Part shown: positions 2-30,509 of the stretch, one piece after another
Numbering within the stretch: the first letter of the stretch is position 1
How the letters are laid out: every line of letters starts with the position of its first letter
IMG/VR virus record: IMGVR_UViG_3300044568_003431
Location: 1-32,429 of that record
Reading direction: 5' to 3' (one strand)
DNA: 32,429 nucleotides
From: a virus
The notes under the pieces: model-generated
Database searches by the model: none
Told to the model about the DNA's origin: nothing
What the model saw: only the letters and a program-made list of their open reading frames with translations
Program-made: the position numbers and the translations under genes

Positions 2-535
2 AATGATAGAGAAAGAAAATTAGAAGAAGTTAAAACGTATGTAAGTAATAATTTCCTTGAAAACAATATTTTTAATTTGAATTTAAATTTTACAGATATA
101 AAAACAGAAACAGATAGTAATGTATCTTCTGTTAGTTTAAATTCGGACTCAGTTGAATTATATTTTAGAGAAACAAAAAGTCCATCTAATGGTCAGTATT
201 CCTATTCATTTGGAAATGAAATTAAAGCAAATTTGATAGATGATTATGATATCACTTCTACCTTTGTATTCAAGAATGGTCTTTCGGGAACATTGAGAAT
301 TAAAGTCAACCAAACATCATCTAGAACTTCGTTCATTCCATTACGAGCATTTACTACTACTGGAAATGAAATTGAGGGTGATTTTGGAAGAGTAAATATT
401 TCTAAAGGCACAATTGAAATTTATGATATTGCTCAAACTTCCTATGTGCTCACAATTCCATTTAAAAACAAAAATTTCAATTCTACATTGAATAACATAG
501 TGAATATCTATCAAGAGGGAATAGCAATAACATGA
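2..535 (+). CDS. gp6: Baseplate wedge protein gp6-like, C-terminal part (5' end outside window)
   Basis: The reading frame is open from base 2 to the TGA at 533-535, giving 177 residues of a protein that begins upstream of the window; a TTG at 77 is not a credible start because the frame continues to the window edge. In T4-like phages gp6 forms the dimeric wedge ring of the baseplate. The call rests on the pattern seen at the C-terminal end of gp6 proteins: an amphipathic stretch (KLEEVKTYVSNNF), then an acidic segment, a beta-rich stretch around FVFKNG, and a terminal 'GRVNISKGTIEIYDI' strand pair like the G-x-[IV]-x-x-x-x-G-x-[IV] ending of the family. Synteny agrees, since gp8 follows one gene later. 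The stop overlaps the next ATG by four bases (ATGA), indicating translational coupling. The family call is from memory of the pattern and is moderately sure. Confidence 0.6.
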   Translation, partial: NDRERKLEEVKTYVSNNFLENNIFNLNLNFTDIKTETDSNVSSVSLNSDSVELYFRETKSPSNGQYSYSFGNEIKANLIDDYDITSTFVFKNGLSGTLRIKVNQTSSRTSFIPLRAFTTTGNEIEGDFGRVNISKGTIEIYDIAQTSYVLTIPFKNKNFNSTLNNIVNIYQEGIAIT

Positions 536-1749
536 TTGTAATCAATCCAAATCCTGAGAATATAAATCACGCAATACGAACGCTTTCAACGGCAATTGCT
601 GATGAATTATTTGATTTGGATATCAGGTATAATACTAGAAACGAAATCCAGTCTATTGGGCCTACACAAACAACTGAAACCAATCAAAATCAAAATCCAA
701 ATTTAAATTATTCATTAAATTCTCAATTTTGCGGAACTAATTTTGATATCAGTCGGTACATACCACTATGGGTTGTTTATGAAAAGCAAGAAAGAATAAA
801 CAACGGAGAAACGACCCCAATAAGTATTTTTGACTTTTTACAGAAATACTATAACTGGTTGTACTGCGATCTTGAGGGCGGCGGTCAATATGATTTATCA
901 CAAGCACTAATAGATCTAATTGATATAGAAAAAACCAAAAGAGAATACTATAAAAGATTTTTGTTTTCCTTTGTACCGGGCGTAGAGGAAACTGTTCTTG
1001 ATAATGTAACAGATGTATCATTTGAAAGATTCATCAAAGATATACGAAAGAATCTTTATTTAAGAAAGACAAATGTAGATTCCATCATTTATTTCTTCAA
1101 AACACTTTTTGAGGTAGATGAAAACAACATTAAAATATATTTTCCAAAAGAAAATATTTTAAGATTAAATGGTGGTAAATTTTATAGTGATCTTTTTACC
1201 TTCGGTGGAGATACCGGAAACTATTCATCTATCAATAATTTAGGTGGTAGTTCTTTAAATTTGGCAAGATTACAGGACAGCGATTGGATACAAGATTTCT
1301 CTTATCTGCTCAAAACAGGTTTGGAAAAAGATGTTTATGTGGATATGTACAAAGAAGTCCTACATCCGGCAGGACTGAGGGTTGTATTTGAAAAGGAAAT
1401 TTCCGATTACGCTGGACCAGGTGAGGGAGAAGATACCAATCTTATCTGCGAGTTTCCTGCTCTCAAGAATTACACACCATATAGATTAGGCACAACTTAT
1501 AGCACATCAATTGGAACTATGACTGGAATTACTCTGTATGGTCTTACTTGCTGTAATGGGTTTAGTTCTGGGTTTACTTTGGGTTTTACTGGGCCAACAT
1601 ATCATTTTCCAAATTGGAATGGCTCCTCTGGATTGTATCGTTTTGATGATATAAATATATTCGACTTTTTTACAATGTGTTTTATTGGTGGATTTACTAG
1701 TCCAAACGAGGGAGTAACTTGCACCTCAAGTAGTTGTAGCGGTTCCTAA
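532..1749 (+). CDS. Structural protein in the gp7 position, function unassigned
   Basis: This 405-residue protein starts at an ATG overlapping the previous stop, with a good ribosome site (AGAGGGA) just upstream. Residues 98-215 contain FLQKYYNWLY, then a helical region (FERFIKDIRKNLYLRK) and the stretch VDSIIYFFKTLFEVDE followed by KIYFPKENIL. This series resembles a segment found in large baseplate-associated structural proteins of T4-like cyanophages, where 'LYRSKGT...LFRLLF' is followed by 'VDVYVPGEDVL'. The C-terminal 100 residues are rich in Gly, Phe and Cys (TCCNGFSSGFTLGF, CTSSSCSGS) and look like a surface appendage. It sits between gp6 and gp8, the place of gp7 in T4, but T4 gp7 is 1032 residues and no other gp7 feature is recognisable. 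A structural baseplate role is likely; orthology with gp7 is inference from position only. Confidence 0.55.
   Translation: MIVINPNPENINHAIRTLSTAIADELFDLDIRYNTRNEIQSIGPTQTTETNQNQNPNLNYSLNSQFCGTNFDISRYIPLWVVYEKQERINNGETTPISIFDFLQKYYNWLYCDLEGGGQYDLSQALIDLIDIEKTKREYYKRFLFSFVPGVEETVLDNVTDVSFERFIKDIRKNLYLRKTNVDSIIYFFKTLFEVDENNIKIYFPKENILRLNGGKFYSDLFTFGGDTGNYSSINNLGGSSLNLARLQDSDWIQDFSYLLKTGLEKDVYVDMYKEVLHPAGLRVVFEKEISDYAGPGEGEDTNLICEFPALKNYTPYRLGTTYSTSIGTMTGITLYGLTCCNGFSSGFTLGFTGPTYHFPNWNGSSGLYRFDDINIFDFFTMCFIGGFTSPNEGVTCTSSSCSGS
1650..1657 (+). promoter_or_regulatory. Possible T4-type late promoter inside a coding region
   Basis: An exact TATAAATA occurs near the 3' end of the upstream structural gene, 104 bases before the gp8 start. 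T4-like late promoters consist of little more than this octamer, recognised by a gp55-type sigma factor. It could drive gp8 and the genes after it. In AT-rich coding DNA the octamer can arise by chance, here across Asp-Asp-Ile-Asn-Ile codons, so the call is weak. Confidence 0.25.
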
Positions 1750-1761
1750 TACGAGATTAAA

Positions 1762-3486
1762 ATGTTAAAAAAATCAAATTCAGTTAAAACATATTTAAAT
1801 AGAATAGCAACCAAGGAACAACTTTACTTGTTGCTCGGATCTACACAATCCACGATTCAAGCAAATGATACAAATGATGCTGCCCTTACTATGTGGAAGG
1901 ACTCTGAAATTGCGTACAAAATTTCCAGAGCAGATACGGTTGCTGTTGTTCCCAATTACACATGGGCAAAAAGTAATGTTTATGTTCCTTGGTCATCAGT
2001 AAAAACCAATTCTTCGAAATACTATGTTTATAACAAAACACACGGAATTGTTTATCTCTGTATATCCAATAACAATTTAAACAGAATAGATTTAGAAACA
2101 AAAAATGCTTCAACTTCAATTCCTAATCACGAGTATGGTATATCTCGGTATGAAGATGGATACGAATGGCTGGCTTTATTTAAGATAACTCCATCTTTAT
2201 TGCGGTTTGTATCTACAAATTGGATTCCTGTTGTTTCATTGGATGATTTCTCGGAAGATGAATCATTGAATCAATATGGTGAACTTTCCAATTTCTGCAA
2301 CCAAGCACCAACAAATACGGGAAATTGTGGCGTATATTTTAAAGAAAACTATAGAGTTCCGTTTAGTTCAGTAACCGATACAGTATATGCACAGGGCGAT
2401 TTATATGCCACATTAGCAAACATGACATGTTCTCAGTGCTACATGCTTTTTCAAGATCCAGAAAGTTTATATGTTTCTGAGTTTTTTGGTTCTTCTACAC
2501 CCGATAGCACAATATCAATTACAACGACACAATCAAAAGTTAAAGATTTGATTGATAGAAGCATACTTTCGAGCGCATCTCCCTATTATTGGTTGTATTA
2601 TTCTACAGAAAATGGCGTAGAAGATGGTGCGATAGTTTCTTGTTTAATAGATTTGAGTAGTTATAGTGAAAGCGATTTGTATGTTACTTCTGCAAATCCA
2701 TCTCTGACTATAACAAGTAGCACAGGAACTGACGCAACTATTAATTTAAAAACATATGTCAATTCTTTAGGTGAATATGTAATTGAAGGCATCGAATTGG
2801 CAAATAGAGGGTCTGGTTATAAGGATATTCACTTACAAGTACCTTCTGGTGTTTTGAAAAACATAAGTTCGTCTACTCTAGTATCGTCAATAGAAGTCAA
2901 TTTGGATGAAGTAGATGGTCTAGGAATTGATCCAGTGAAGACACTAGATGCAAGACATGTATCAACTAGTGCAAGAATTTCACTGACCGAACTAGCAAAT
3001 AGCGATATACCAATACCAAGTAGCATAAATTTCTATGGAATAGTCAGAAATCCATTGGAAAGAATTTCAAATACAACCACTACCGCAGGAACCTCTGTTG
3101 GTAAATACAAATCATCGGTTTCGGAAACTGTCGTAAAGGTCACGGTCAGTGGTCTGGTAACAGAACCGGAAGTAAACGAGACTGTAATTCTCAAGTCAGG
3201 TGGTTCAATTGCGGCATATGAGTTAGCTGATGTTGAAGTTGCCGGCATAGGAACAGGATTTGTAGATACAACATTAAAATTAAAAACAATAGATGACCGT
3301 GGAATTGTCAATATGAATGTACTGGAATATGAGGGTGTGGATTACCCAATTACTGGGTATGAATTACCAGATTTAGTATTTTACAGTGGTTCTACCGAAA
3401 CCGTTAAAAAAATAGATCCAATATCCATTGGAACCGATACAGAAAATACTAAATATTTTAGTATAACATCAATCAAAGCACTATAA
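1762..3486 (+). CDS. gp8: Baseplate wedge protein gp8
   Basis: gp8 is a baseplate wedge subunit of contractile-tail phages and is part of the wedge that attaches around the central hub. This 574-residue protein shows the family series seen in marine T4-like phages. An early Trp and hydrophobic segment leads into VVPNYTWAKSNVY (residues 62-74), then a strand pair ending GIVYLCISNN (about 95-104), then EDGYEWLALFKITPSLLRFV (131-150). An ANRGSGYKD loop is near residue 345, and a 'STSARISL...INFYGIVRNP' segment lies around 401-433, equivalent to the conserved 'ND-F-R-Q-I-G-[IL]-[IV]-[RK]-[ND]-P' block. T4 gp8 is 334 residues; marine relatives are longer, and the extra length here is a beta-rich C-terminal tail. 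A short GAG-type ribosome site precedes the ATG, 12 bases after the previous stop. Confidence 0.82.
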   Translation: MLKKSNSVKTYLNRIATKEQLYLLLGSTQSTIQANDTNDAALTMWKDSEIAYKISRADTVAVVPNYTWAKSNVYVPWSSVKTNSSKYYVYNKTHGIVYLCISNNNLNRIDLETKNASTSIPNHEYGISRYEDGYEWLALFKITPSLLRFVSTNWIPVVSLDDFSEDESLNQYGELSNFCNQAPTNTGNCGVYFKENYRVPFSSVTDTVYAQGDLYATLANMTCSQCYMLFQDPESLYVSEFFGSSTPDSTISITTTQSKVKDLIDRSILSSASPYYWLYYSTENGVEDGAIVSCLIDLSSYSESDLYVTSANPSLTITSSTGTDATINLKTYVNSLGEYVIEGIELANRGSGYKDIHLQVPSGVLKNISSSTLVSSIEVNLDEVDGLGIDPVKTLDARHVSTSARISLTELANSDIPIPSSINFYGIVRNPLERISNTTTTAGTSVGKYKSSVSETVVKVTVSGLVTEPEVNETVILKSGGSIAAYELADVEVAGIGTGFVDTTLKLKTIDDRGIVNMNVLEYEGVDYPITGYELPDLVFYSGSTETVKKIDPISIGTDTENTKYFSITSIKAL

Positions 3487-7601: not shown

Positions 7602-10493
7602 ATGCCAAATTTTATATACGGAAGTAGTAATATACCAGTAAAGACAGTCTCGAATATTTCGGGACTTACTGGTGCTACTGGTCCAACCGGCCCTATTGGT
7701 GTTACGGGAAATACTGGACCAGATAAAAGAGGAAGTACAGGAAACACTGGACCTTCTTTGATCTTCATTTCAAAAGATTCCAACAACTACTTACAGCATT
7801 ATTTTAACGATAATACAATTATAAACAGTACAGGTAAGATACAAGGAATTACTGGCAATTTTCAATTACAAATTGCAGGAACCAGTTTAGATATTTACAA
7901 TGTACTAAAGTCTGATTTAAATGATCAATTATATACAAGAAATGACGGTTCTACTTACACGGTAGATATGGTCACTTTCAGAAATATATCAACAAATAGT
8001 AATCCATATATTACAATCGTTGAGAATGATGGAAAGACAATTGAGATTAAATATAATCTTATTGGTATTTCTTTCTTGGGCATAAGCGGTGGAAGCGACG
8101 GTCAGTTACTAAAAAATACACTAGGAAATTACCAAACAGGCGAAACTGGTACTGCTTATAATACATCATCTAAAACAATAGATGCTCAAGCAAGTAACAT
8201 AACTCAGAGATTTTTAATAACTACTCCATCTGTTGCAACTGGTACAACTAATCAAGTAAAATATTGGGAAATAGATCCATCAGTTGGAAATGCTTTTTAC
8301 TTATCGCCGACTACAATTTCTGGTGGAAATGTATCAACTAGTAGATATTTTATAGTACTCAAAGCACCACAAAATACAAACAATTCACATTCTATTACTA
8401 TAATAATTCCTCCGGGAAATACAACAACCCTTCCCGTGGAATACGCGACAGTAAATTCGTTTAGTGATATTAGTAATTGGTCACTGAAGGACATATCACC
8501 TGTGGTATGGCCTTTAGGTGAAGTTCCTTGTTTTTCTAGTACTGCAAATGCATACACCTTTTTAAATTTTGTTTCAATAGGTGGAATATGGTATGGTAAT
8601 GTAATTGGTTTTAATATTACCAATATGTCTAGCGTTGGAGCTACTTTTAATAATTCAAGTACAACGGATAGAACAACATTATATTCCTGTCGTAGTGAAG
8701 TTGGTACTGTTTTCACAAGAGCATTACAACTTCCATACGGAACAAACGCCGGAGTTACCGCAGGAATTTGTTGCAATTCAGATTGTACTATATCTGATAC
8801 TTTAAATATTCTATGTGATGGATTCTTTATTGCTGGTCTTACTTCTGCACAAGGAACTACATTCTGTGGTAAATTGGGTGCATGTTGTTTGCGCGATTCA
8901 AATAATAAAGTTTTACCATGTCAGAAATTAAAATTTTGTGACTGTGCAAGCATTGCAGATAATTCTGGATTGCAATATTCTTGGTATGAGTTTAAAAATT
9001 CAAAGCAATCCTGCTTGGATTTTAATTGTGCAAATGCACTAGAGTCCTTTGGTGCTTGCTGCGATGGTAATGGAAACTGTCAATCCTTAACTAAAGACCA
9101 ATGCATTTCAATTGGTGGGTATTATCAGGGAGATGGAATTAATTGTATATCATCAAAACAAGTTCCCGTTTGCTATGGAGGCACAGGATCCTGCTGTGAT
9201 TCTGGAATAACTTGTGAAAATTCTGTATATGGTCCTGATTGTATTTCCAATAATAAAACATATTTTGGAGATGGAACTTCTTGCATAGATTTCGATTGTC
9301 GCATTAAGGGAATTCCTTGTTATGGAATAATTCCAAATGAAACATTAAATTTTGGTGATATCTATGAAAACGGAATGGTCTGTGGAATCTTTAATCCGAA
9401 GGGAACTAAGTGCTTCGGTAATCCAATATTTGGATCAAATCAATCTGCAACATATGCAGAATTAACTGAGGAATTAGAAGAAGAAATAAGTTGTTCTGAT
9501 TATAAATCAATTTATGATTTTGTGGGTTATGGATTTACAGGAGATAGCATTTGTGATGCAGAATCGGATTCTTACATTGTTCTGATGTCTTTGCATCCAA
9601 TCACAATAAATGAATCAAATGAAATTGTAGAATATACCGGAACCAGTTCTGATACCACAGAATTTATATGGAGTCACGGTGGAAACTATTGGGGTCCACT
9701 AGTAAATCCATTTACTGGTTTAGTTTCCGAATTAACTTCAGATAAATTAAACTACAAGGAAGGTTACATTTACGATTATACAGACGAAAACACAAAACAA
9801 AATCTAACAATAAATTCGTTTATAGATTGTGGATTTGTAAGAAAGACAAATGAACCAAGTTCTTGGCTCACAAATAATCCAAATAGTTCATTTAATGGTA
9901 AATGGTTCCGTAATTATGGATTAATGAATACCATAAGAATGGTAAATTCTGAATATGCATACTACTATGGTCTAACTGGTTCTAATTTTACTCAAACCAC
10001 ATATACACCAACACAAGACGCAACTGAAATTACAAGTGCAAGAGCATTGTCTTTATTCAATAAAGCATACGAAGAAACCAATAATTTCATATCAGATTGG
10101 TTTATTCCAAGTTACGATGAATTGGCATTTATTGCTAAGAACTGTTTGTCTGATTCAGAAGATAATGTAAATGCAAAACTATTACAAAATGGTGGAACTC
10201 CAATGGACGGATGGTATTGGTCTTCTACCGGAACATTTGATGGAACCACAAATGAATATGTACTGAATCATCCATCTGGTCTGACCCACGGCACAATGTC
10301 TTGGGCAATTAAATTTGATTCTGATGGATTAACTGATCAGTTTACCACTAAAAAGGCACACAGAATAGAAAATAAATATAAAGTCAGACCAATCAAATTA
10401 ATAAGATGTGATAAAAGTTATTTTAATAATACGTCTTCAGATAATAAATACTGGAGAATAACTAGACTAGATGAGAATGTGATAAATGACTAA
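7602..10493 (+). CDS. Collagen-like, Cys-rich adhesin with C-terminal Lcl_C/DUF1566-type domain
   Basis: This 963-residue protein begins NFIYGSSNI, followed by collagen-like Gly-X-Thr/Pro triplets at residues 21-52 (broken once at DKR). A beta-rich domain runs to about 380 and includes a WPLGEVPCF...GGIWYGNVIGF segment shared with the other long genes here. Residues 426-566 carry three Cys modules of the form G-[AS]-C-C...C...C...GG-x-Y-x-G-D-G...C. The C-terminal domain, about residues 680-937, has the DUF1566/Lcl_C series SDWFIPSYDELAFIAKN (831-847), WYWSSTG (871-877), SWAIKFDSDG (900-909) and YKVRPIKLIR (926-935). Collagen repeats plus this domain is the layout of the Legionella collagen-like adhesin Lcl, which binds host glycans. 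No signal peptide is present, as expected for a virion protein. The start lacks a clear ribosome site. Probable tail-associated adhesin. Confidence 0.75.
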   Translation: MPNFIYGSSNIPVKTVSNISGLTGATGPTGPIGVTGNTGPDKRGSTGNTGPSLIFISKDSNNYLQHYFNDNTIINSTGKIQGITGNFQLQIAGTSLDIYNVLKSDLNDQLYTRNDGSTYTVDMVTFRNISTNSNPYITIVENDGKTIEIKYNLIGISFLGISGGSDGQLLKNTLGNYQTGETGTAYNTSSKTIDAQASNITQRFLITTPSVATGTTNQVKYWEIDPSVGNAFYLSPTTISGGNVSTSRYFIVLKAPQNTNNSHSITIIIPPGNTTTLPVEYATVNSFSDISNWSLKDISPVVWPLGEVPCFSSTANAYTFLNFVSIGGIWYGNVIGFNITNMSSVGATFNNSSTTDRTTLYSCRSEVGTVFTRALQLPYGTNAGVTAGICCNSDCTISDTLNILCDGFFIAGLTSAQGTTFCGKLGACCLRDSNNKVLPCQKLKFCDCASIADNSGLQYSWYEFKNSKQSCLDFNCANALESFGACCDGNGNCQSLTKDQCISIGGYYQGDGINCISSKQVPVCYGGTGSCCDSGITCENSVYGPDCISNNKTYFGDGTSCIDFDCRIKGIPCYGIIPNETLNFGDIYENGMVCGIFNPKGTKCFGNPIFGSNQSATYAELTEELEEEISCSDYKSIYDFVGYGFTGDSICDAESDSYIVLMSLHPITINESNEIVEYTGTSSDTTEFIWSHGGNYWGPLVNPFTGLVSELTSDKLNYKEGYIYDYTDENTKQNLTINSFIDCGFVRKTNEPSSWLTNNPNSSFNGKWFRNYGLMNTIRMVNSEYAYYYGLTGSNFTQTTYTPTQDATEITSARALSLFNKAYEETNNFISDWFIPSYDELAFIAKNCLSDSEDNVNAKLLQNGGTPMDGWYWSSTGTFDGTTNEYVLNHPSGLTHGTMSWAIKFDSDGLTDQFTTKKAHRIENKYKVRPIKLIRCDKSYFNNTSSDNKYWRITRLDENVIND
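7662..7757 (+). repeat. Collagen-like Gly-X-Y codon repeat, first adhesin
   Basis: Nine-base units encoding Gly-Leu-Thr, Gly-Ala-Thr, Gly-Pro-Thr and similar triplets, interrupted once by Lys-Arg. In phage tail proteins such runs form short collagen-type triple helices that hold a trimer together. Confidence 0.8.
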
Positions 10494-13400
10494 TTTTATA
10501 TACGGAAGTTCAAATATCATAATGCAGTATTCCGGTGTTACCGGATTTACTGGTATAACTGGACCTACCGGCCCTACAGGACCCACTGGACCGACGGGTG
10601 GTGGCATATTGGGTTATACCGGAAATACTGGTTATGGTATTACCGGGGCAACTTCCACATCAAGTGGATATATTACATTTTACATTGGCGGAACCGGAAC
10701 GGTAACAATCGGGATTACTGGTTCTGCTGGAACAGATGCAACCAATTCTTTTGTCGTGCTTTCTGGTTCTACTCTTGATAATAATAATGCAAGTGGTATA
10801 ACTTTATTCTCTCCGTTCTATACAACGGATGATCTTGAAAAAGACACAAATAAAATTGAAATAGGATACAACGAAACACCAAAAGTAAAATCTTTACTAT
10901 TCACTTCATTGAATGGTGAGATTGAAAGTGTGGTTGAAAACACCAATCAAATAATTATAAGAGGCAAGACATTCGACACATATCCAATAGGAAATACAGG
11001 AGAACTCTTGTATTTGAGCAATGGTGTTGCAATTGGAGCAAGAGAGACATTTTATAATGATATTATAAATCAACTTACTGTTGGTTTTGATACATTCAGA
11101 CAACCTATTTCTGGAAATACTGGAAACATTTGGAGTTATGGAAATACCCAAATTTTCAGTACATATTCTCAATTTGGTCAAACTCTTTCCGGTGGTTTCA
11201 CTGCCGGTAAAATGCAAATAATAGAAAAATGGAATGGATCGGATTCTTTTGTATCAAATAATGGTGTTTACGATATTCCGAATAATCAGTTTGATATTCA
11301 ACAAAAATATTTCTTTGGAACGACCGGAAGCGGAAGCGGTACTAAAGTACAATTCTTGTCTCAGGGAATTACATTTACCAAAGGTTTATTTCAATTCCTT
11401 CCACAACTTTTAACAGACGATAAATTTGGTTCGTGCTGTTTCTGTCCTCAAGGCACAAACGACAAACTATGCATAGATTACTGCAATAGAGATTATTGCG
11501 TTGATATAGGTGGTCAATTTAGTAATAGATCTTGTGTCGAACGTGCAGGAACTACAGATTGTTTTCCAGAAGGTGCATGTTGTGTAAATGGAAAGTGCGT
11601 AAATACAAATCTTGAATCTTGCACAAAATATGGTGGAGTTTTCTTCCCTGATGAATTGTGCTCTACAACAATCATAGAAGGAGAACCAGCGTTCTCTTGT
11701 CCGGATGCTTGCTCTACTGGTCTTGGTTCCTGCTGCTATAAGGGAAGATGTCTAAATTTAAATCAAGCAGAATGTAATGCAATTCCAGACACAGTATTTA
11801 TTCTTGGAAAATCGTGCGACGAATTACCGAAGATAAATGATACTGATTATTGTTGCAGCGTTTCTAATTATGTTGGTGCATGTTGCTTCTCTGATGGTCA
11901 GGGTAATAGTAACTGTGAAGGCGGAAAAAGACCAGAAGAATGTTCTAGTGCTGGTGGTGTATTCATGGGACTGGGAACACTATGTGAAGAAATTAATTGC
12001 TGTGGTGTTTCGTATTCTCCAGAATATTACAAAGAATCCACCACATGCAGACAAACATCAAACGATCCGTGTAATGCGCCGGGTACAAGAATTGGTGGTG
12101 GATATCTAGTTGCAATAATAGGAGCACCAAATTCCTGCACCACTTTCTCACAACCACAAACTGCACTTGGAGAACCACTTGAGTGCCTATGCAATCCAAG
12201 AGGTGAAGTTGCAGGCGACCAATCCGAAACTTGGAAATTTAAAAACTGCAAAACATATCAAGGCGAAATACCATCAACAAGTGCATACTACCGTGAATAT
12301 TTCAACAGAACACATCCAAGAGTACCGACTCTCAAAATGTATGCAAACAAATGCTTGTTGAAAGCAGGAGCACCATATATCACACAATTGGTATCTGGTA
12401 CTACTGATATCGGAAATGATGTGTCTTGGCCAAGTCAAACTATGTTCGAGGGAACAGATACTTATCAACCAACAATGTATCTTTCCTTCGATAATCAAAC
12501 TTGCAATATAATGACTGAAGTTGTTGGATTGGGCACACCATCTTCTAGTCTATACAAATATATGGCAGAGCAGTTCTATGGTAAAAGAGCAATTCATATT
12601 TCATGGGCATTGATCTTAGCACCAAGAGATCTATATACAAATTATGCCGGTGTTACATTTGGTTATATGAAGTGGTCTAATATGTTTGAGTCTCGCGTAG
12701 GACCGGGTTCGGAAGCAAAGTTACCAAACTATTTCATCGAACCCGTTGCAACTTCGCCTGTGGATGGATTGCTCAATACAAGAATACACGATTCATATTC
12801 TAAGAGCAAACCAGAATTCTGGTTTAGAGATTATGATGGTGATGGAATAGATGAATTGGCATATAATCGATTCGTTTCGCAAAATATAAATCAATGGAAC
12901 TTGGTCGAAAACGAAGTCAAACAAGAAATCGAAACAGATAAAGATACATTTGCATATTACTATTCTCAATTGTGGGAAAAATTAAATCCAGAAAATACAG
13001 CAATAAGACAAATATCAAAAGCAAATGAAATCAATTTCTATGGATACGATGATTGGTATATTCCAAGCATAGTAGAAATGAATTATATTGCAAAGTATAT
13101 TGGAGAGATAAACCAATCTATTCTTACAATTGGCGATGATGATCACGAATTAATGCGTAATTGGAACTTTGAGGGTTCTGGTACTTTCTATGATAATGAT
13201 AACGACACACGAGATACCATTTATTGGACATCGACAAGTGTTTGCAGAGTTAAATCATGGAATAATCAAAACCACACAATAAAAGATTTGTATACTTTAG
13301 AATCAACAAGTGACACCATAAACAATAAATCTAGATTCTTATCTATTGATTTTGGACTATCTGATGCCCAAGCATTTGACCTTTCTCATCAAATTTGCAA

Positions 13401-13617
13401 TGGTCAAAAAATGTTAGCACAAAACTTCGGCAAAGCAGCTAATGGTGCGTATGGTCAAGTATTGAGTCTCGATAGACAGACTCTGTGCAGACTAAGACCT
13501 GTCCGAAGAATACCAATAGTTGTCGGATGCTCCGATATAGAAATAATTGATGCATACAGTGAATATAATTTCCAAACATGTCCGTCTTGCTTCGATTATG
13601 ATAATTGTTCTTCCTAA
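10486..13617 (+). CDS. Collagen-like, Cys-rich adhesin with Lcl_C/DUF1566-type domain, second copy
   Basis: This 1043-residue protein is a diverged paralogue of the preceding gene, overlaps its end by 8 bases, and shares an 18-base identical run just inside the start (encoding NFIYGS). Collagen-like triplets occupy residues 17-40, with further Gly-rich repeats to 55. Four Cys modules lie at about 315-350, 363-392, 414-445 and 464-505 (for example EGACCVNGKC, GSCCYKGRC). A GGGYLVAIIG strand near 537-546 begins the C-terminal region. It contains an EF-hand-like RDYDGDGIDEL loop (781-791), YDDWYIPSIVEMNYIAKYIG (854-873), TIYWTSTS (911-918), FLSIDFGLSD (951-960) and LCRLRPVRRIP (1000-1010), the DUF1566/Lcl_C series. 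The tail adds a last Cys cluster (CPSCFDYDNCSS). Probable tail-associated, disulfide-stabilised adhesin; the ligand is unknown. Confidence 0.74.
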   Translation: MTNFIYGSSNIIMQYSGVTGFTGITGPTGPTGPTGPTGGGILGYTGNTGYGITGATSTSSGYITFYIGGTGTVTIGITGSAGTDATNSFVVLSGSTLDNNNASGITLFSPFYTTDDLEKDTNKIEIGYNETPKVKSLLFTSLNGEIESVVENTNQIIIRGKTFDTYPIGNTGELLYLSNGVAIGARETFYNDIINQLTVGFDTFRQPISGNTGNIWSYGNTQIFSTYSQFGQTLSGGFTAGKMQIIEKWNGSDSFVSNNGVYDIPNNQFDIQQKYFFGTTGSGSGTKVQFLSQGITFTKGLFQFLPQLLTDDKFGSCCFCPQGTNDKLCIDYCNRDYCVDIGGQFSNRSCVERAGTTDCFPEGACCVNGKCVNTNLESCTKYGGVFFPDELCSTTIIEGEPAFSCPDACSTGLGSCCYKGRCLNLNQAECNAIPDTVFILGKSCDELPKINDTDYCCSVSNYVGACCFSDGQGNSNCEGGKRPEECSSAGGVFMGLGTLCEEINCCGVSYSPEYYKESTTCRQTSNDPCNAPGTRIGGGYLVAIIGAPNSCTTFSQPQTALGEPLECLCNPRGEVAGDQSETWKFKNCKTYQGEIPSTSAYYREYFNRTHPRVPTLKMYANKCLLKAGAPYITQLVSGTTDIGNDVSWPSQTMFEGTDTYQPTMYLSFDNQTCNIMTEVVGLGTPSSSLYKYMAEQFYGKRAIHISWALILAPRDLYTNYAGVTFGYMKWSNMFESRVGPGSEAKLPNYFIEPVATSPVDGLLNTRIHDSYSKSKPEFWFRDYDGDGIDELAYNRFVSQNINQWNLVENEVKQEIETDKDTFAYYYSQLWEKLNPENTAIRQISKANEINFYGYDDWYIPSIVEMNYIAKYIGEINQSILTIGDDDHELMRNWNFEGSGTFYDNDNDTRDTIYWTSTSVCRVKSWNNQNHTIKDLYTLESTSDTINNKSRFLSIDFGLSDAQAFDLSHQICNGQKMLAQNFGKAANGAYGQVLSLDRQTLCRLRPVRRIPIVVGCSDIEIIDAYSEYNFQTCPSCFDYDNCSS
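10534..10605 (+). repeat. Collagen-like Gly-X-Y codon repeat, second adhesin
   Basis: Eight consecutive Gly-X-Y triplets, including four Gly-Pro-Thr in a row. The repeat DNA is GC-richer than its surroundings (GGACCTACCGGCCC), which makes it a likely site of slippage or recombination with the sister tracts. Confidence 0.8.
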
Positions 13618-13627: not shown

Positions 13628-15169
13628 ATGTACAGCAGCGCAATATCTAAAAATTCTTTATTTGGCCCTCTAGGCCCCACCGGCCCAATTGGTAGAACTG
13701 GTGCAACTGGAGCGACGGGAACAACCGGAGCAACAGGAAATACAGGACCATATGGCAAATATGTAATTTCTGCTATAGGTGCAACTACCGGAATAATATT
13801 AACTTTCTCAGATGGAACCACAAGCGGAGTAACCGCAAACCTAAAGGGTGTTACTGGTTATGGTAATACAGAAACTCCAGAATCGGTAGGAGAAGGAATA
13901 TCAATAGTTGGTTCTTCCTCCGAAGGTCAACTGAACATAAAAGGCATAAGTGCCATTGGATCGTTAGCAATAACGGTTGATGATAGTAACCTAAAAATAG
14001 ACACGATATACAAAACAACTGTAGGAAATCTTTATTCCCTCGGTCTATCCGCAGATACTTTAATGTATCTAAAGGGATCTAATCTGGCATCAAGTACCAG
14101 AGTAAAATTGGATGGTACTGGAAATATGAACTTCCAGAACCAATTCTTTTTAAATGATTCTGCATACATAAAACAAGTTGGACCTGTAAAGAAAAATCAA
14201 TATGTCGGCATCACCGGAGCCTTAGAAAACTTTACTATAGGAACCACGGGGGGAATCTATATTGATTTAGAGAATGGCGGTCTATATCTGGTAAAGACAC
14301 CAATCGGTATTGCAGGATTTACTGGTTCATTCAGACGAAATGAAATTCTAAATGCAACATTAATAATAGAATCAGATGAGATATGGAAGTTCCCTGAAAA
14401 TGTATACTTCAGTGAAAACGAAAACTACTTTACATGTGGCAAAAGCATAGTCAATATATTCACATTTGATGCAGGAAACAATTGGTATGCTACCGTTTCT
14501 CAGCGTGGGTTGGATGTAGAATTCCTGAATGCATGTAAGTCTTCCTTTGGTAAAGGATCTTGCTGCTATACAAAATACCCAGAAAACACGAAGAACTGTG
14601 TTGAGTATGTAACAAAAGATGAATGTCAATTGTTGAGTGGTGAATTTACCGCACTTTCTTCATGCAGTCAGACTTGTGCTCAAGGCGGTATTTGCTGTTC
14701 AAACGGTCAGTGCTTGGCTGACGTAGATGTCGAAGAATGTACATTCTTTGGTGGTAGATTCTATTCAACTATAAATTGTTCGTTTTATCCAAATAATCCA
14801 GCAGGCCCTAATTATGGTTATCCGATAGAAGCAGGAAGACTATGCTTTGATGCTTGTGAAACTGAAAAATTGGCCTGCTGTAAAGATGGAAATTGCATAG
14901 GCGATGATCTCTCAAGAATACAATGTGAATTAATACTTGGTGGTAAATCTTTTACTGGTGGAGATTGTTCCACTATAAATTGTTGTGAAAATAATATAGG
15001 TACGGGTGCTTGCTGTGTATGTAATAACAGCGCAGGAAAGTCAGTTGAATGCAAAGATGACTTAACAAAATCTCAATGCACAAAATATGCAAAGTCTATA
15101 AATTCTGCATACACCGGAATATTCATGGGTGAAGGTGAGCGGTGTGAGAATTTAAATTGTGATTGTTCT
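13628..15169 (+). repeat. Paralogous gene-front copy A (partner 17173-18714)
   Basis: The first 514 codons of this gene match the first 513 codons of the next one at protein level nearly end to end, including the collagen run, the conserved beta domain and four Cys modules. Two stretches are identical in DNA: 14048-14097 with 17593-17642 (50 bases) and 14114-14151 with 17659-17696 (38 bases). Tandem duplication, with later gene conversion or strong local constraint, explains the pattern. Confidence 0.8.
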
Positions 15170-17155
15170 TGTGCTAATATCCCACCAGAAGATCCAAATG
15201 TTCCCTGCTGTAAGACCGATGGAAGTTGCGTTGATGTTCCTCGTTCTCAGTGCATATCACTAGGTGGAATTCCGGGTCAAGCAGGAGATGTTTGTAGCGA
15301 TACAGAATGTGAACAACGAAAAGGTGCATGTTGTATTGGAACTACTTGTAGTACAAAAACATATGCAGAATGTTCTAGTGCCGGTGGTGTATATAAAGGA
15401 GATGGCGTAATATGCGGATCAACCACATGTGAAGGTGAAACTGGCGGCACAGGTGGAGAAAGTGGAGAAACTGGAGGAACAGACAACGGAGATGGAGATC
15501 CCAGTAATCCCTCAGGTCCGGATGATGGTGGTGGCACAGATACTGGAGGAGAAGACGGCGGCACACAGACAGGTGGTGGGCAGGGTACAGGATCAGGCGG
15601 AGGTGCAGGCCCGGGCGAAACGGGACCACCCAAAAATATATGTCCAAGTTGCAACTATACTGGTTGGGGCAAAGAAATTATTAAAGATGAACCATTAGAT
15701 GGTGGTGCTACTGGACCTTTAAAAAATCCAGACGGCTCGCCCAATCCAGCTGGCGATCTTGGAAATCCAGATAATTACACAAACAGATGCTGCTATCGCC
15801 ATAAGAATCCGTACCACTTCAAAGACGGTAAATATGTTTCACCATGTAAAAATGGGGACGATTCACATATTCCTTTCTGGAAAAAACAAGCTCCACCGGC
15901 TGGAGGACCATCATCTGGTACTCCAGCAGGTGAAGAGGAAGGCGCACAGTTTGCTATAATGCCAAATTGTGGAGTTGATGCTGGCTGTCCAGATTTCAGT
16001 AAGGTTCTTTGTCGCATGGATTGCTACGAAGAGATGATGAAATTCTTTGTTTGCTGTAAAGCTAAGAAAACAATGACATCTGGAACGAATGAAGAAAAAG
16101 ACGCATTATGTCCTGGCCACGGAGGTTGTCCATTTAGCGGTGCCGTGCCTGGTGAAGATTGTTCACAGATATTGAATAATGCTAATACTAATTTAAGCTG
16201 TCCATTTAATTTTGGTTCCGATCCGTGCAAATATGCAGAAAACCTACCAGATAGTTTTGTTGATATATTTAAAGGCAAAAATAGTAATGTAAAATTTGAA
16301 TGCTATTGCCCAAAAAAGGTTGGAGCTAACTGTACTCCTTTTCCGTGTGCGCTATATAAAGACCCCCCATGCAAAGGTTTAAATGATCCATCACAAAAAA
16401 ATCTTGGACCATCTGGAGATAAAGGACCAGGTGGAGGAGGGGATGGTACAGACTGGGAAGTGGCCCCAAATGGACAACCCCGATGTAAGGGTGGAAATAA
16501 AAACGGAGAAGGTGGCGGAAAGGGCCAAGGAAGTGGCAATGGAAATATTGATTATGGTAAATGCTGTGGTAATCCAGATAATGGTGGAGTCATAAACGCC
16601 GATGATAAACCCGCACAAGAAAACAATACAGGATATTGTCTTGCAAATGGTATTTGTGGAATGTTCTGTCAGGGCGATACTGTTTGTATGTTTATGAAAG
16701 ATCCATGTTATAATCAGTATATAAAAGATTGGGATAAAACTGTACCCGGAGGCAATGACGATGAAATTCAAACACCGAAAACATTTCCAAATCCGGGTAC
16801 TTCAGATAGTCCACAAGAATCACCGCCAGTATGGCATGTAACTGGATGCCCAAAATGTGCGCCAGGCGGTTGGACAAAGGAAGCAACTTATCCTGATTGG
16901 TTCCCAGGCACATCAGGAAGTGGCCCTTATAATCCAAATTCTCCAGGCAAAGGTGTTCCTACGATTAAAATGCCCGGAAGAATGACAATATCTTGCAATG
17001 GAGACTTTGGTTCCCCAGTACCACCAACAACATCTTCACCATTTACTACAATTAATACACCAATAACATTTGTAAAAATATATAATATCGATGAAACTTA
17101 TGATTGTGTTCCTATAGTTACAGAAACAGATATGTCATCATATGAACTTTGCTGA
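13628..17155 (+). CDS. Collagen-like, very Cys-rich structural protein with Gly/Pro linkers
   Basis: This 1175-residue protein starts with MYSSAIS and a collagen-like run at residues 13-45. A conserved domain (about 46-300) includes VGEGISIVGSSSEGQLNIKG, LYSLGLSADTLMYLKGSN and WKFPENVYF...FDAGNNWYATVSQRG. Six Cys modules follow (310-346, 354-384, 415-452, 460-511, 525-561, 566-601). A low-complexity Gly/Asp/Thr linker lies at 602-665, followed by a long Cys-, Pro- and Gly-rich part with no recognisable family and a second Gly-rich linker at 925-975. The protein ends in VKIYNIDETYDCVPIV...SSYELC, which recurs at the end of the next gene. The first 514 residues are strongly similar to that gene, so the two share a scaffold with different middles. 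No Lcl_C domain is seen. There is no clear ribosome site before the ATG. Probably a virion surface appendage; its ligand is unknown. Confidence 0.7.
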   Translation: MYSSAISKNSLFGPLGPTGPIGRTGATGATGTTGATGNTGPYGKYVISAIGATTGIILTFSDGTTSGVTANLKGVTGYGNTETPESVGEGISIVGSSSEGQLNIKGISAIGSLAITVDDSNLKIDTIYKTTVGNLYSLGLSADTLMYLKGSNLASSTRVKLDGTGNMNFQNQFFLNDSAYIKQVGPVKKNQYVGITGALENFTIGTTGGIYIDLENGGLYLVKTPIGIAGFTGSFRRNEILNATLIIESDEIWKFPENVYFSENENYFTCGKSIVNIFTFDAGNNWYATVSQRGLDVEFLNACKSSFGKGSCCYTKYPENTKNCVEYVTKDECQLLSGEFTALSSCSQTCAQGGICCSNGQCLADVDVEECTFFGGRFYSTINCSFYPNNPAGPNYGYPIEAGRLCFDACETEKLACCKDGNCIGDDLSRIQCELILGGKSFTGGDCSTINCCENNIGTGACCVCNNSAGKSVECKDDLTKSQCTKYAKSINSAYTGIFMGEGERCENLNCDCSCANIPPEDPNVPCCKTDGSCVDVPRSQCISLGGIPGQAGDVCSDTECEQRKGACCIGTTCSTKTYAECSSAGGVYKGDGVICGSTTCEGETGGTGGESGETGGTDNGDGDPSNPSGPDDGGGTDTGGEDGGTQTGGGQGTGSGGGAGPGETGPPKNICPSCNYTGWGKEIIKDEPLDGGATGPLKNPDGSPNPAGDLGNPDNYTNRCCYRHKNPYHFKDGKYVSPCKNGDDSHIPFWKKQAPPAGGPSSGTPAGEEEGAQFAIMPNCGVDAGCPDFSKVLCRMDCYEEMMKFFVCCKAKKTMTSGTNEEKDALCPGHGGCPFSGAVPGEDCSQILNNANTNLSCPFNFGSDPCKYAENLPDSFVDIFKGKNSNVKFECYCPKKVGANCTPFPCALYKDPPCKGLNDPSQKNLGPSGDKGPGGGGDGTDWEVAPNGQPRCKGGNKNGEGGGKGQGSGNGNIDYGKCCGNPDNGGVINADDKPAQENNTGYCLANGICGMFCQGDTVCMFMKDPCYNQYIKDWDKTVPGGNDDEIQTPKTFPNPGTSDSPQESPPVWHVTGCPKCAPGGWTKEATYPDWFPGTSGSGPYNPNSPGKGVPTIKMPGRMTISCNGDFGSPVPPTTSSPFTTINTPITFVKIYNIDETYDCVPIVTETDMSSYELC
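13664..13762 (+). repeat. Collagen-like Gly-X-Y codon repeat, third adhesin
   Basis: Eleven consecutive triplets from Gly-Pro-Leu to Gly-Lys-Tyr, mostly Gly-Ala-Thr. The amino-acid pattern is almost identical to the tract in the next gene (GPTGPIGRTGATGATGTTGA in both). Confidence 0.82.
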
Positions 17156-17172: not shown

Positions 17173-18714
17173 ATGTATAGTAGCTCAATTTCATCAATCA
17201 AAATGCTAGGCCCGGATGGCCCCACTGGTCCTATAGGACGAACTGGTGCTACTGGTGCTACTGGCACAACAGGTGCTACTGGAGCAACAGGTACATATGG
17301 TAAATATGTAATTTCTATTCAAGGAATAACCACCGGAGTAGTATTAACATTTTCTGACGGAGTGACTTCTGAAATAAAAGGAACATTTCGCGGAACGACC
17401 GGATATGGTAATACTGAAATACCAGAATCTGTAGGTGAGGGTATTTCTATAGTCGGATCTTCTTCTGAAGGTCAATTAAATATCAAAGGTATCAGTGGTG
17501 TTGGTTCTCTTGTTGTCACTACAACGAATAACAATTTATTAATTGATACGACTTACACATCTACGGTGGGAAATTTGTACTCGCTCGGATTGTCCGCAGA
17601 TACTTTAATGTATCTAAAGGGATCTAATCTGGCATCAAGTACGCGGGTCAAACTAGACGGTACTGGAAATATGAACTTCCAGAACCAATTCTTTTTGAAC
17701 GATTCTGCTTATACAAAAAGAGTAGGGCCGGTTAAGAAAAATCAATATGTTGGTGTCAATGGAGAACTAGAAAATTTTACCATAGGAACAACTGGTGGAA
17801 TTTATATTGATCTAGAGAATGGTGGTTTTTACGTTCTACAAACACCAATTGGCATTGCAGGATTTACTGGTTCATTTAAACAAAATGAAATTATAACTGC
17901 AACCGTTCTATTTACTTCTGATGATATCTGGAAGTTCCCAGAAAATGTTTATTTTGAAGAGAATGAAAACTACTTTACTTGTGGTAAAAGCATAGTCAAT
18001 CTATTTTCTTTTGACGCAGGAAACAACTGGTATGCAGTAGTTTCTCAAAGAGGAATAGATTTAACCTATACAAATAGGGATACCTTTGCCAATATAGAAT
18101 CTTGCGTTCCTGCACTTTCAACTGGTTCTTGCTGCTATACCAAATATCCAGAAAATACATTAAATTGTTTAGATTATTCTACAAAAGATCAATGTGATTT
18201 ATTGGGTGGTAGATTCTCTCCTCTTGTTTCTTGTGTAGAATCATGTGGTACTGAATTGGGTCTTTGTTGTTCAAACGGACAATGCATAGAAAATGTAAGT
18301 GTAGAAGAATGTTCTTTCTTTGGTGGAAATTTCTATTCTGGCATTGCTTGTGGAACCTATCCAAACAATTCTAGTGGAAAAAATTATGAAAGCGTTATAA
18401 CAGAAGGTCGTTTGTGCTTTGACCCATGTGAAACTGAAAAATTGTCATGCTGTAAAGATGGAAACTGTATAGGTGATCAACTTTCCAGAATACAATGTGA
18501 GTTGATTTTGGGCGGTAGATCATTTACAGGCGGAGATTGTTCTACTACAAATTGCTGCGAGAAGAATATAGGAAGAGGTGCTTGCTGTGCATGTGCTGCT
18601 AAAGATCTTCTTTGCTTTGATGATTTGACTCCAGCAGAATGCAAAAGTGCCGAATATGATGGCATTTTTATGGGTGAAGAAGAGCGATGCGAGAATGTAA
18701 ATTGCAGATGTGTT
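17173..18714 (+). repeat. Paralogous gene-front copy B (partner 13628-15169)
   Basis: This is the second copy of the shared front module. It carries the partners of the 50- and 38-base identical tracts, at 17593-17642 and 17659-17696, while flanking codons differ mostly at third positions. Confidence 0.8.
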
Positions 18715-21700
18715 GGTGGCACAGACACACCCCCAGTAAACAATCCTCCGGTTTTTGATTTAGTATTAACGACACCAACTGTGTTGCCGAATGAAACTGC
18801 AACGATTAATATTCTAAATGCATCTGATCCAGAAAATAATGCACTTACATATAGAGTCATAGTAAATAGATTACAACCATCTACTACAGAAGTTTATAGA
18901 ACTGAATTTGTTTCTTTACCAAATTTACAACTTACATCATATACAACACAAGCATTGCAACAATTTGGTACAGAAACTACAAGTTATGAAATAATAGTGT
19001 CACTCAAAGATACTGGAAATAATGTAACAACAAAATCAGTATCTTTGAACATACAAACACAAAATCCGGTTATTGAATCCTTAACAGAATTTCCAGATGT
19101 AATAACGCTACAATCTCTACCAACCACAATTGAAAGAACAATTGCTGCCCAAGCATATGATCCAGATGGTGGAGATGTAACATATCAATTTGAAGTATTA
19201 ACAAATACAGGAAACTCTCAAACAACCATAACACCAATTACAGAATCTTCTGTTAAACTTTCTGTAGATGCTCCCTCGGATGAAGTAAATTCTTTCTTTA
19301 TTACAGTAAAATGCACAGTAACTGATGATGAAGGTCAGACTTCAACAAGAAATACTGTTCTGGCCTTTACAAGAGATTTATTACCAACATTCACATTAAC
19401 AGTAACACCCGCATCTGGAAATGTTGGAACTTCATTTACAGCAAAGGCACAAATAGATGCAAATCAAGGAAATTTAAAATATAAGTGGGATACGATTTAT
19501 CCTGATTCTTCTATAACCTCTACGGAATATGAAAATCTTCCACCACTATCTGGTGTTGCAAATATTCAAAAAATAATACCATCTACTATGGTTGGTACTT
19601 ATAAAGCAAGATTTACTTTACAACAAGATCCTTTTGATGCATTCAATACAGTTACAAAAGAAGTATCATTCATAGTAACAAATAATAATCCAGTAATTAC
19701 ATCACAAACACCAGATGAAACAATTACTGTAAATGCAACAGAAGCAGTAAATATTACAAGAACTCTTAGTATAACCGCAATCGATGATGAAACTTTAACA
19801 TATAATTGGGCTGTTATTTCGGGTACAGTAAACTCAATAACCGATCCAACTACTTCATCTATAACAGTAAATCTGAGAAATACAGGTACATATCAATTTA
19901 GATGCACGGTCACGGATCCATCTGGAGCAACAGCGCAGGCAACCATTTCGATTATAATAAATCGTAGTGGTGCGCCAATAATCACAACAATAAGTTCGGA
20001 TTTTAATGTAAATCCAGATACAAGTTTTACAGTTTTTGCAAGTGGAATATCGGATCCAGAAAACGATGCACTTGAATTTAAATGGGTTCTCACTAAAGAC
20101 ACAGTAGATGGTATTATAGACACAGAGATTCCATATGCTTCATTATTGTCATCTACTTCATCATATAACGTGGCGGGTGGTAGACCGGGTGGATTGACAG
20201 ATAAAATATACTATGCAACATTATATGTCAAAGATTCTCTTGGTAACGAAACAACAAAGAGTACAAAAATAACTGTTGTATCACAAATACCAACAATATC
20301 TGCAACCTATTCTCCTACAATTGACGCACCAATATATCGATTTACTGAAGTCCTTTCTGATGGTACTCTAACAACAAATTTAAGATCTAATTTTATACTA
20401 AATTGTAATTTAAACGCAACAGACCCAGATGGCGGGTCTATTGTTTCGTATAATACAACATGTTCTCCTGCTGGTGGTGTTGTTATTACAAATGCTAATT
20501 CTTCTACTCCTACTTTGACATTTGCAAGAACAGGAACATTTAATCTTTCCCATTATTCAATAGACAACGAAGGACAACAAAGTACAGTTTTAACTAAAAC
20601 TTTTCAAATTGTTAGAAATGAATTACCAGTAATTGACACTACCCAGACACAAACTTCCATATCTGCTAGTTGTTCTGAACTAATTACTGGAAAAAATATT
20701 GCAATTGTAGCAAATGTAACTGACGATTTAACGCCAGTAAATCAATTAATCACACAAATACAATTTGATGCTATCCAATCAACAGCAGGAATAAATGCTC
20801 AATTTGTCTCTACTAGTACACAAAATAATACAATAACTTCAATTTTTAACATTACTGGTGCTGGTACTTATGTATTTAAAGTATCAGTGACTGAACAGGG
20901 TTTTGCAAACACTTCAGATTCTACTATTTCTCAAAGTGTAACAAAAGATGTTTTCATTAGTGTAACACAAGAAATTAATAATCCACCAGTAATAACAAAT
21001 CCGACTTCTATAAATTTTTCAAATCCACTTCCTGCGACTATAGGACCATTTGATTTCAGTGCAGCAGATTCTAATGGCATATCAAATATTGCATTTGTTC
21101 TTGGGTCTTTACAACCAACGGGATATTTTACCCGTGGTGTTAATTCTTTCAATTCAGCAAATAATACTTTTAGTATTTTCTTAAATAAAGATCCAACTAA
21201 AACTGCTGCTGACTTTGTAAGTGTAACAAATGGATTTTCTTTTAAAGTCAGAGCAACTGATACTTGTACTGCATTCACTGACAGCACATATACATTTTTT
21301 GTTGTCAATACTGGTCCAACAGTTCAAATAACATCCCCGGCTAATCCAACATCATTAACATTACCAATAACATCACAATCAATAACAGCAGTTGCGACTG
21401 ATCCAGATCAATCCACATTTACATATAATTGGAGTTTGAGCGGGCCGAGTACAACATATACATTTACACCAAACAATTCTACAAGCGGAACAACTATTCT
21501 TTCTGGATTGAACAAAGGCGGAACACATGTTGCTACCGTTTCAGTAACAGATGCCTCTGGTTCAACATCAACCAGTACATTAACATTAAATGTGACTGAT
21601 CCAAATCCAATTGCAAATGCAGGAAACGATCAATCATACACATATGCAGCAAATACTTCTTGGCCAAAACAATTTAATTTAACTGGTTCAGGAACAGATC

Positions 21701-24700
21701 AATCTGGTGGTTCTATTTCTGCATATTCTTGGAGAATAATTACAAATCCCGGAAATGCTGCATCTTTAGTTCCTCCAATTTCTCAAAATACAGTAGTCAA
21801 TATTTCTACTTTTGGAGTGTATGTATTTGGTTTAACAATAACTGATAATAATGGAAATACTTCTTCGGAAGACACAGTTCAAATTCAATTAATATCTGAT
21901 GCTCCGCCGACAGTAAATCTTATTACTTCTACAAGCGATATAACTCTACCCAGTAATAGTGTTACATTAACTGCAACAACATCTTCCGATGTTACTTCTT
22001 TGAATATTGAGGAAACCAATGGTTATAGTGAATATACAGTAACACCAGTTTTAAATGGTCCAACAACATGGACAAGAATAATATCTGGATTAATACCAAA
22101 TACAAATGGGACTCCAAGAACATATTCTTTTGTTGCAAAGGCATCTGATGACTATCAAACTGTAACTTCCAATTCAGTAAATGTTGTAGTAAATAATCAA
22201 GCCCCAACGGCGCAAGTATTTTTACCTTCAATTCTAATTAATAATGTAAATTTTAATAATCCTTATAGTTTTGGTATTACTGGTTTTGCAAATGATCCAG
22301 ATGGAGGTTCATTAACTTCACCTACATTTACATGTGATGCATTCCCTTCTACTTATACTGGAAATATATCATTTACAAATCCAACCATATCATCTACAAG
22401 CGGCGCAGGAACAACATATAGTTCAACTTGTACTTTAGGACCAAGATTAATTCCTAGTGGAACAGCTAGCGGATATACTTTTTCTTTTAGAATAACAGAT
22501 GATGAAGGTCAGACTGTAATATCTTCAGGAAAAAACTTAGCATTTGCAAATTCTTCTCCATCTATAACAGAAACGACTAGAACATTAGTTCAAAATTTTG
22601 ATGGAGTTTCGACATCATTTAATACAAGTTTATTTAATATAACAGCAAACGATGTAAACGACCCCGCAGGGCCTTTCACCTTTAGTTGGATTGCAAGTAC
22701 TGCAATAAGACCCGCAGGGGCAGGAACTCCAAACATAATAACTCCATCATCAAGTGATGGAAAAACTAATATATTTTTTACAGATCCGCAAATAGGTGGA
22801 ACATATGGATTTACTTTAGTAGTAAGGGATCCAAATTCAACTGGAGCCTCAAGATCTTATACCATAAAAAGAAATGCAGCACCAACCGCAACAATTACTT
22901 CACCTGTAATTAACGGAACTTCTATAACTTTACCCGTAAACACAGTTTCATTGGCTTCTTCTGCATCCGATTCCGATGGATTTATCTCTACATACGCTTG
23001 GTCAATAACAGCAAAACCAAACGGAAGTAATGCATCATTGAATAGTACTAGTGTTTCTAATCCAACATTAACTGTAGATTTAGCAGGAAGTTATACAGTA
23101 CAACTAATAGTAACCGACAATAATGGAAGACAATCTACTGCTGTTACAAGACAAATAACAGTAAACGCAAATCCCGCACCAAGTATTAATAGTTTTACTG
23201 CAACCCCAACATCAGTAACTATATCAGACGGTTCTGCTGGTACATCATTAACTGTAAGTGCAACCGATCCTAATTCTCAACCATTAACTTATAGTTTTAG
23301 TCAAACTTCTCCGGCCACGCCATTAGCAACAATAGTACCCGGTTCTGGTACTAGTGCAAACACAGCAACAGTTTCTGGAATGACTGTGCCTTTTTCTTCC
23401 TCCACCACACCATCAAGTAGAACATATACGTTTAAAGTAGATGTTTCTGATGGCACAAATACAACATCACAAACAACAAATGTTGTAGTAAATAGTTCAT
23501 CCCCCACGATTAATAGTCTTAATAATGTTACTGATACTTATAGAGGATCATCACAATCTATAACAATTGGAAGTGGTGCAAGTGTTGCTGATCCAGATGG
23601 AGGATCAGTAACAACAGAATGGAGTTATGTTAGTGGTGCTGGATCTACACCAACAATAAATTCATCGACTAGTTTAAATACAACTGTTACCGGATTTAGT
23701 GTAGCAGGAACATATACATTTAGATTGAGAGTAACAGACAATGAAGGAACATATACAGAACAAAATATAACTGTTACTTTAAATGCGGCAATAACTCCAA
23801 CTGTTGCTTTTACGTCAACCGCTGCGGTTGTTGTTGCAAATGAAACAACGAGTTATAGTGGATTTAGTGTTAGAATATCAAATGCTTCAACTGCCGGCCC
23901 TTGTAATTTGACATTTAGTATTTCTCCTCCTGGTCCAACAATAGCAAATACAACATATTCAAATATTACAAATAATGCTTTAAATTATTCTACTGGTATA
24001 ATATCAAATTTAACACCCGGAATAACCTATACGATATCCGCAACTGCAACAAATCCGTCAACTTCGGCAACCGCATCAACATCACCAAATCCTACTTTAA
24101 GAAGAAATGCATTACCAAGTACACCAGCAATCTCTGGTTCAACAACTGGTTCTTCTGGAACCAAATTAACCTATACAATTACTGGCGGTTCTGCAACTGA
24201 TTCAGACGGATCAATAACAAACTATCTTTGGTCAACAACTCCGTCAACTAGTACTATATCGCCAAATAATACACCTACGGTTGGCATAACATTCAATGCA
24301 GACGGTCTTTACACTATTAAGTATACTGCTACTGACAATGATGGTGGTACATCTACTAGTGGTAATTTTACTACAACAATATCAACCGCCGTAGATGTAT
24401 GTGCTCTTAAAAACTATGCAAGATCAGGAGCAAACTCGCAAGCGTATAATTTAATAATTCCCAATGATAAAATTGCTGGATCATCAAAAACTTCTACTAC
24501 ATCTTGTTCGAGTAGTAGTGCTTTATTTACCAAATTTAGTAGTGGTGGTACAGATGATTACGATTATTTAGGTACAAAAACAAGTGCAATATCATGGAAA
24601 ATTAATCCAGTACAACCTACAGGAAACGACGATACAGGAACAAAATGGCCTTATTCTAATTTTGTATTAAGAAGAGGAAATTTTGCTACTCAAAATGTTG

Positions 24701-28795: not shown

Positions 28796-28799
28796 TTAA

Positions 28800-30499: not shown

Positions 30500-30509
30500 G
30501 GTTTAAATT

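Follow-up and report, generated by a model that had tools for sequence, protein, structure and literature searches.

We analysed a stretch of 32,429 nucleotides of viral DNA, positions 1 to 32,429 of IMG/VR record IMGVR_UViG_3300044568_003431 (hereafter the window), which by its neck and baseplate homologues is part of a contig of a T4-like myovirus. Two neighbouring open reading frames (ORFs) on the plus strand, g1 (7602-10493, 963 amino acids) and g2 (10486-13617, 1043 amino acids), encode proteins with collagen-like triplets near the N-terminus and a C-terminal region resembling Lcl_C (DUF1566, PF07603), the domain that ends the Legionella collagen-like adhesin Lcl. We infer, with a probability of about 0.6, that g1 and g2 are trimeric fibres that dock to the virion and carry ligand-binding Lcl_C adhesion tips of C-type-lectin-like fold. 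Use of Lcl-type domains as phage fibre tips, proposed earlier in a sequence-only reading of this DNA, is the best reading because the genes lie between the baseplate wedge and gp13 and because Lcl_C behaves as a module that a fibre can have or lack.

Architecture of g1 and g2 and homology of their C-termini

Both proteins are laid out as an N-terminal segment (FIYGSSNI), collagen triplets, a stalk, Cys modules and an Lcl_C-like C-terminal region. In g1 the collagen-like tract (residues 21-52; 7662-7757) is interrupted once and holds seven Gly-X-Y triplets at residues 21-41, plus residues 44-52, and that of g2 (residues 17-54, interrupted; 10534-10647) holds eight at residues 17-40, found by regular expression, plus residues 46-54. 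Upon shuffling of the first 80 residues, a run equal to the observed one was obtained in 0 of 5000 trials for g1 and in 2 of 5000 for g2. PHROG tail-fibre matches cover the tract of g1, and the tract of g2 has a PHROG collagen-like minor tail match. The tracts are short, about 25-35 residues, and the stalk proper is beta-rich and spans 250-320 residues. The Cys modules are placed between stalk and tip; in g1 (residues 390-566; 8769-9299) they are of CC-type and are kept in a relative, A1, and in g2 they take up residues 317-506 (11434-12003). The sequence-only reading had the coordinates of both ORFs exactly right, and the collagen-like triplets, the inserted Cys modules and the architecture common with Lcl (a collagen tract and an Lcl_C end), all of which it had described, were confirmed.

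Judged by profile comparison, the C-termini of g1 and g2 are divergent PF07603/Lcl_C domains. The tip region of g1 (residues 582-936; 9345-10409) matched PF07603 at residues 808-895 (10023-10286; 17.5 bits, E 0.005), and that of g2 (residues 533-1010; 12082-13515) at residues 837-921 (12994-13245; 23.1 bits, E 9e-5). Both scores are below the gathering cut-off of 34.9 bits, and the assignment therefore rests on orthologues: two orthologues of g2 exceed the cut-off (35.4 and 35.3 bits); those of g1, and of a shorter downstream gene, g5, are all under it. The C-termini matched Lcl_C in all 11 members of the g2 alignment and in 9 of the 12 of the g1 alignment, and the sole other family found on them was GHL15, a weak match (E 0.007) in one g2 member. 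A hidden Markov model (HMM) of 93 other viral Lcl_C domains detected g2, g1 and g5 with E-values of 5.8e-12, 8.8e-12 and 1.7e-8, and none of the shuffled decoys reached E<=1; its members were gathered with the DW[YF]xP motif, so agreement at those positions carries no independent weight. The profile match foreseen by the sequence-only reading thus fell short of the family threshold for the two proteins themselves and was obtained with the g2 orthologues and the viral HMM. Alignment of profiles by hhalign gave probabilities of 95% between g1 and g2, 92% between g2 and g5, and 96.5% between g2 and the canonical Lcl_C domains of collagen-bearing phage proteins. A PDB sequence search with g1, g2 or their profiles returned nothing meaningful. 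The heads are long, about 360 residues in g1 and 480 in g2 compared with about 130 in Lcl, and their insertions separate the first strands (GDxYxxG...) from the DWxIPS core.

Gene position and modularity of the tip

The cluster g1-g5 sits between baseplate wedge genes and gp13/gp14, in the window as in many relatives. It is bordered upstream by two ORFs that match baseplate wedge PHROGs (532-3486) and downstream by homologues of gp13, gp14, gp15 and gp16 (27995-30983), all on the plus strand; gp16 is followed by an ORF resembling a terminase-large-like ORF of the relatives. The window gp13 is about 40% identical to gp13 of Pelagibacter phage Mosig, Synechococcus phage S-CAM9 and Methylophilales phage Melnitz, and gp14 about 35% identical to cyanophage gp14. 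In a cultured relative, Melnitz-3, genes annotated as tail fiber directly precede the neck gene. Pelagi- and cyanomyophages have their host recognition cluster in this slot between baseplate and neck genes, and collagen repeats and tropism-type domains have been described in that structural operon (PMC7029224). A search for the host through genomes containing g1 relatives found none. No clear Shine-Dalgarno sequence was seen upstream of the start codons of g1-g5.

The run g1-g2-g3, or the visible part of it, was found in about 12 contigs. One relative, L088, has the gene order of the window through gp13-gp16, and its orthologues of g1 and g2, of 471 and 472 amino acids, terminate after the Cys modules. 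In L088 and in L058, two proteins stand in place of g5, one with the Cys part and one of 211 amino acids with Lcl_C; in L088 their ORFs are neighbours. These truncated orthologues and the separate ORF indicate that Lcl_C is a detachable module. The difference between the lineages may reflect a gain of Lcl_C in one or its loss in the other. In the more distant lineages L235 and L239, collagen chains also bear heads.

The sequence-only reading had overlooked a third Lcl_C copy in the window and two proteins with collagen and Cys modules that lack Lcl_C; all three genes are on the plus strand. The third copy lies in g5 (25895-27397, 500 amino acids), which has an N-terminal Cys part, an Lcl_C-like domain at about 26801-27385 and no collagen, and does not match PF07603 itself; it is directly upstream of a conserved ORF of 178 amino acids, which is followed by gp13. 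The two proteins without Lcl_C are g3 (13628-17155, 1175 amino acids; collagen tract 13664-13762), with many Cys modules and a Cys/Gly/Pro-rich C-terminus, and g4 (17173-25893, 2906 amino acids; collagen tract 17209-17307), with Cys modules and, by eye, a long array of cadherin/PKD-like repeats. The last 30 residues of g4 resemble those of g3. Each of g1-g4 begins with 7-11 unbroken Gly-X-Y triplets, above shuffled N-termini, followed by a stalk and CC-type Cys modules. The consensus of these modules in g1-g4 and relatives is G[AS]CC-x-G-x-C-x-T-x-C-x-GG-x-F-x-G-x-C, and no Pfam match was found for them in the scanned proteins. A GSS-type start is common to g1, g2 and the collagen proteins of L088 and L235-L239 (FIYGSSNI, YGSSRI, MGSSSI). 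In a g2 homologue (L003, 10528-13776) two dockerin-type-I-like calcium-loop repeats (DFNKDGSVNGNDLGILL...) lie at residues of about 270-320, between stalk and Cys modules; such repeats are also seen in the g2 homologues of L005, L008 and L009 and are absent from the window.

Proposed arrangement and alternative roles

In the arrangement that we propose, trimers of g1 and g2 would attach to the baseplate or tail of the myovirus, possibly docked to the virion by the short segment at their N-terminus, which reads FIYGSSNI in both proteins and is GSS-like in relatives. The short collagen triple helix would set the register of the three chains, and the stalk together with the disulfide-rich Cys modules would form a stiff shaft. 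The outer tip, which would bind a carbohydrate or another ligand of the host cell, would be the expanded Lcl_C domain in a C-type-lectin-like fold. The same kind of tip would be borne by g5 on a Cys shaft without collagen, and Lcl_C would be a detachable module common to phage fibres and bacterial adhesins. The homology to Lcl_C, the gene position, the tipless shaft orthologues of L088, other phage proteins that join collagen to Lcl_C and the trimeric lollipop solved for Lcl speak for this arrangement, as do, more weakly, the fold matches of a structural model of the g1 head.

Several observations weigh against this arrangement. The structural model of the g1 head is weak, with a mean predicted local distance difference test (pLDDT) score of 46 (mostly 65-80 in the core), and that of the g2 head (pLDDT 38.8) is too poor for a fold search. 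The best solved match of the g1 model reported here, 4EPS, has a Z of 6.7 over 150 aligned residues at a root-mean-square deviation of 4.3, where Z below 8 is weak by the guidance of the tool; further solved matches are PvdO, Treponema TvpA (Z 4.8) and formylglycine-generating enzymes (FGE; Z 4.7). 4EPS and TvpA are structures earlier tied to DUF1566, which had been linked to the C-type-lectin/FGE fold (PMC4159848); the matches of the model, weak as they are, consistently point to this group and count in favour of the arrangement. The best viral match, likewise in its favour, is a phage protein with the annotation 'Collagen triple helix repeat', at a Foldseek probability of 0.98 and an E of 0.012; the C-terminal domain of Lcl (8q4e) was not among the fold matches, which is uninformative either way. 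The positions equivalent to R342 and K369, which bind glycosaminoglycan in Lcl, are occupied by Y and T in g1 and by I and V in g2 (I and K in g5), and the tips are acidic, with net charges of -23 (g1) and -19 (g2). The alignment of the other binding residues of Lcl, K380, K385 and K391, to the phage tips is not certain. With the two alignable positions non-basic and the heads acidic, the glycosaminoglycan binding of Lcl does not appear to be carried over to g1 and g2, and here the sequence-only reading, which had drawn on that binding, was not supported. Cultured phages yielded no relative for any of the three tips, for the stand-alone Lcl_C protein of L088 or for the g2 shaft. Finally, the tips are as conserved as the stalks or more so, which is unusual for a determinant of host range and makes a simple role of this kind doubtful.

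Conservation of the tip at least equal to that of the stalk, together with the loss of charged ligand-binding positions, would also fit a domain that mainly trimerises or caps the C-terminus (foldon-like) of structural whisker or fibre proteins and binds no host. The location of g5 beside gp13, close to where T4 has fibritin, was counted in its favour as well. We consider such a role unlikely, as L088 and L058 have Lcl_C as a separate ORF and collagen proteins that lack the cap, and as the large insertions before the core of g1 and g2 are unexpected for a minimal foldon. The tips could also be lectins for a conserved or non-host ligand, in fibres that do not determine host range and instead tether the phage to mucus, to particles or to a host glycan that is widely conserved. 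Such a function would agree with the conservation of the tip across lineages with differing stalks, with the occurrence of collagen and Lcl_C in secreted proteins of bacteria and with the three tips per genome; the location of the genes in the host recognition cluster argues against it, and we regard it as rather improbable. That g1 and g2 are not parts of the virion, and that the infected cell secretes them or displays them as Legionella does Lcl, is suggested by the signal-peptide-like starts of most homologous bacterial proteins, but is very improbable, since the starts of g1 and g2 are not of this kind and every relative has the genes embedded in those for tail and neck. A chance resemblance of motifs, with C-termini unrelated to Lcl_C, would account for window proteins under the Pfam cut-off but is scarcely credible in view of the orthologues above it and the independent HMM (E about 1e-11, clean decoys).

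Comparison with known systems

The joining of collagen to Lcl_C in g1 and g2 has counterparts in other phages and in bacteria. A motif scan of viral contigs gave at least 120 stretches, and among the matches listed about eight viral ORFs have, ahead of the Lcl_C motif domain, a tract of triplets that are collagen-like or of GTS-type. Two of these phage proteins, L041 (125 bits for PF01391, 29 bits for Lcl_C) and L105 (49 bits for Lcl_C; E 3.4e-12 between its domain and the crystallised head of Lcl, 8q4e), combine collagen and Lcl_C in one chain, as g1 and g2 do, and are the closest architectural match to Lcl; unlike g1 and g2, they come from other phage lineages, have long collagen or GTS-type tracts and lack Cys modules. 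Lcl_C is abundant in viral contigs and in Bacteroidota, to which most of the bacterial loci belong; these mostly have signal-peptide-like starts, and collagen is present in 5 of about 75 of their ORFs. In a weak tree of 174 Lcl_C cores, phage and bacterial collagen fusions fall on several separate branches, which we take to mean that common modules were joined more than once; the smallest clade with g1, g2 and g5 (support 0.77) otherwise contains viral domains only, and the tree is too weak to show the direction of transfer between phages and bacteria or to bear out the other suggestion of the sequence-only reading, that bacteria took such adhesins from phage tails. Tentatively, the lollipop design of Lcl, a collagen stalk with an Lcl_C head, might be a recurrent one whose modules pass between phage fibres and bacterial adhesins, so that some bacterial Lcl-type adhesins would derive from phage fibres or vice versa; heads of the Lcl_C type might also be widespread adhesion tips of phages outside diversity-generating retroelements (DGRs).

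The fibres of the host recognition cluster (PMC7029224) share with g1 and g2 the genomic slot, and collagen repeats and tropism-type domains occur there. They differ in that no Lcl_C or collagen match was found in the regions of the three cultured members examined, and Cys modules go unmentioned in PMC7029224. Collagen triplets in tail fibre proteins are also known from E. coli prophages (PMC3368898), and the Lcl_C tips and Cys modules would set g1 and g2 apart from those fibres.

Lcl has been solved as a trimeric lollipop (PMC11162425; PDB 8q4e). As in Lcl, the collagen of g1 and g2 is N-terminal to an Lcl_C/DUF1566 end in one chain (g5 is without collagen), and the phage tips may belong to the C-type-lectin-like fold family. 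Unlike Lcl, g1 and g2 have a short collagen tract, contain Cys modules and a further stalk, and end in a tip that is 3-4 times as large; their N-termini (MPNFIYGSSNIP in g1 and MTNFIYGSSNII in g2) reach the collagen triplets within 20 residues and, by inspection, have no amphipathic helix for secretion or anchoring.

Collagen tail fibres (PMC3368898), DUF1566 C-type-lectin-like phage tips (PMC8143477) and collagen-DUF1566 bacterial adhesins (PMC11162425) are already known separately. No paper in the literature searched joins collagen-like, phage and DUF1566, and none names PF07603, a weak sign of novelty as subscription papers were mostly outside its scope. The fibres described here would form a phage family whose head is of the domain family of a solved bacterial adhesin, with three copies per genome and none on the same fibres of a sister lineage. 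The role of DUF1566/Lcl_C, termed unclear by the authors of the Lcl study (PMC11162425), thereby becomes testable in phages.

C-type-lectin-like C-terminal fibre tips are likewise found in DGR targets with DUF1566/C-type-lectin ends, such as Mtd of BPP-1 and the proteins of Bacuni phages (PMC8143477) and Zeta crAss-like phages (PMC12386605). A DGR variable protein is not supported here, as the tip is conserved and no reverse transcriptase was seen: RVT_1 was absent from the window and from 16 related records (fragments, the largest of 157 kb), in which template and variable repeats were not searched for. Unlike the hypervariable tips of DGR targets, those of g1 and g2 are conserved, and they would link the C-type-lectin-like tips of phages, mostly described in DGRs, to a stable class that is not diversified.

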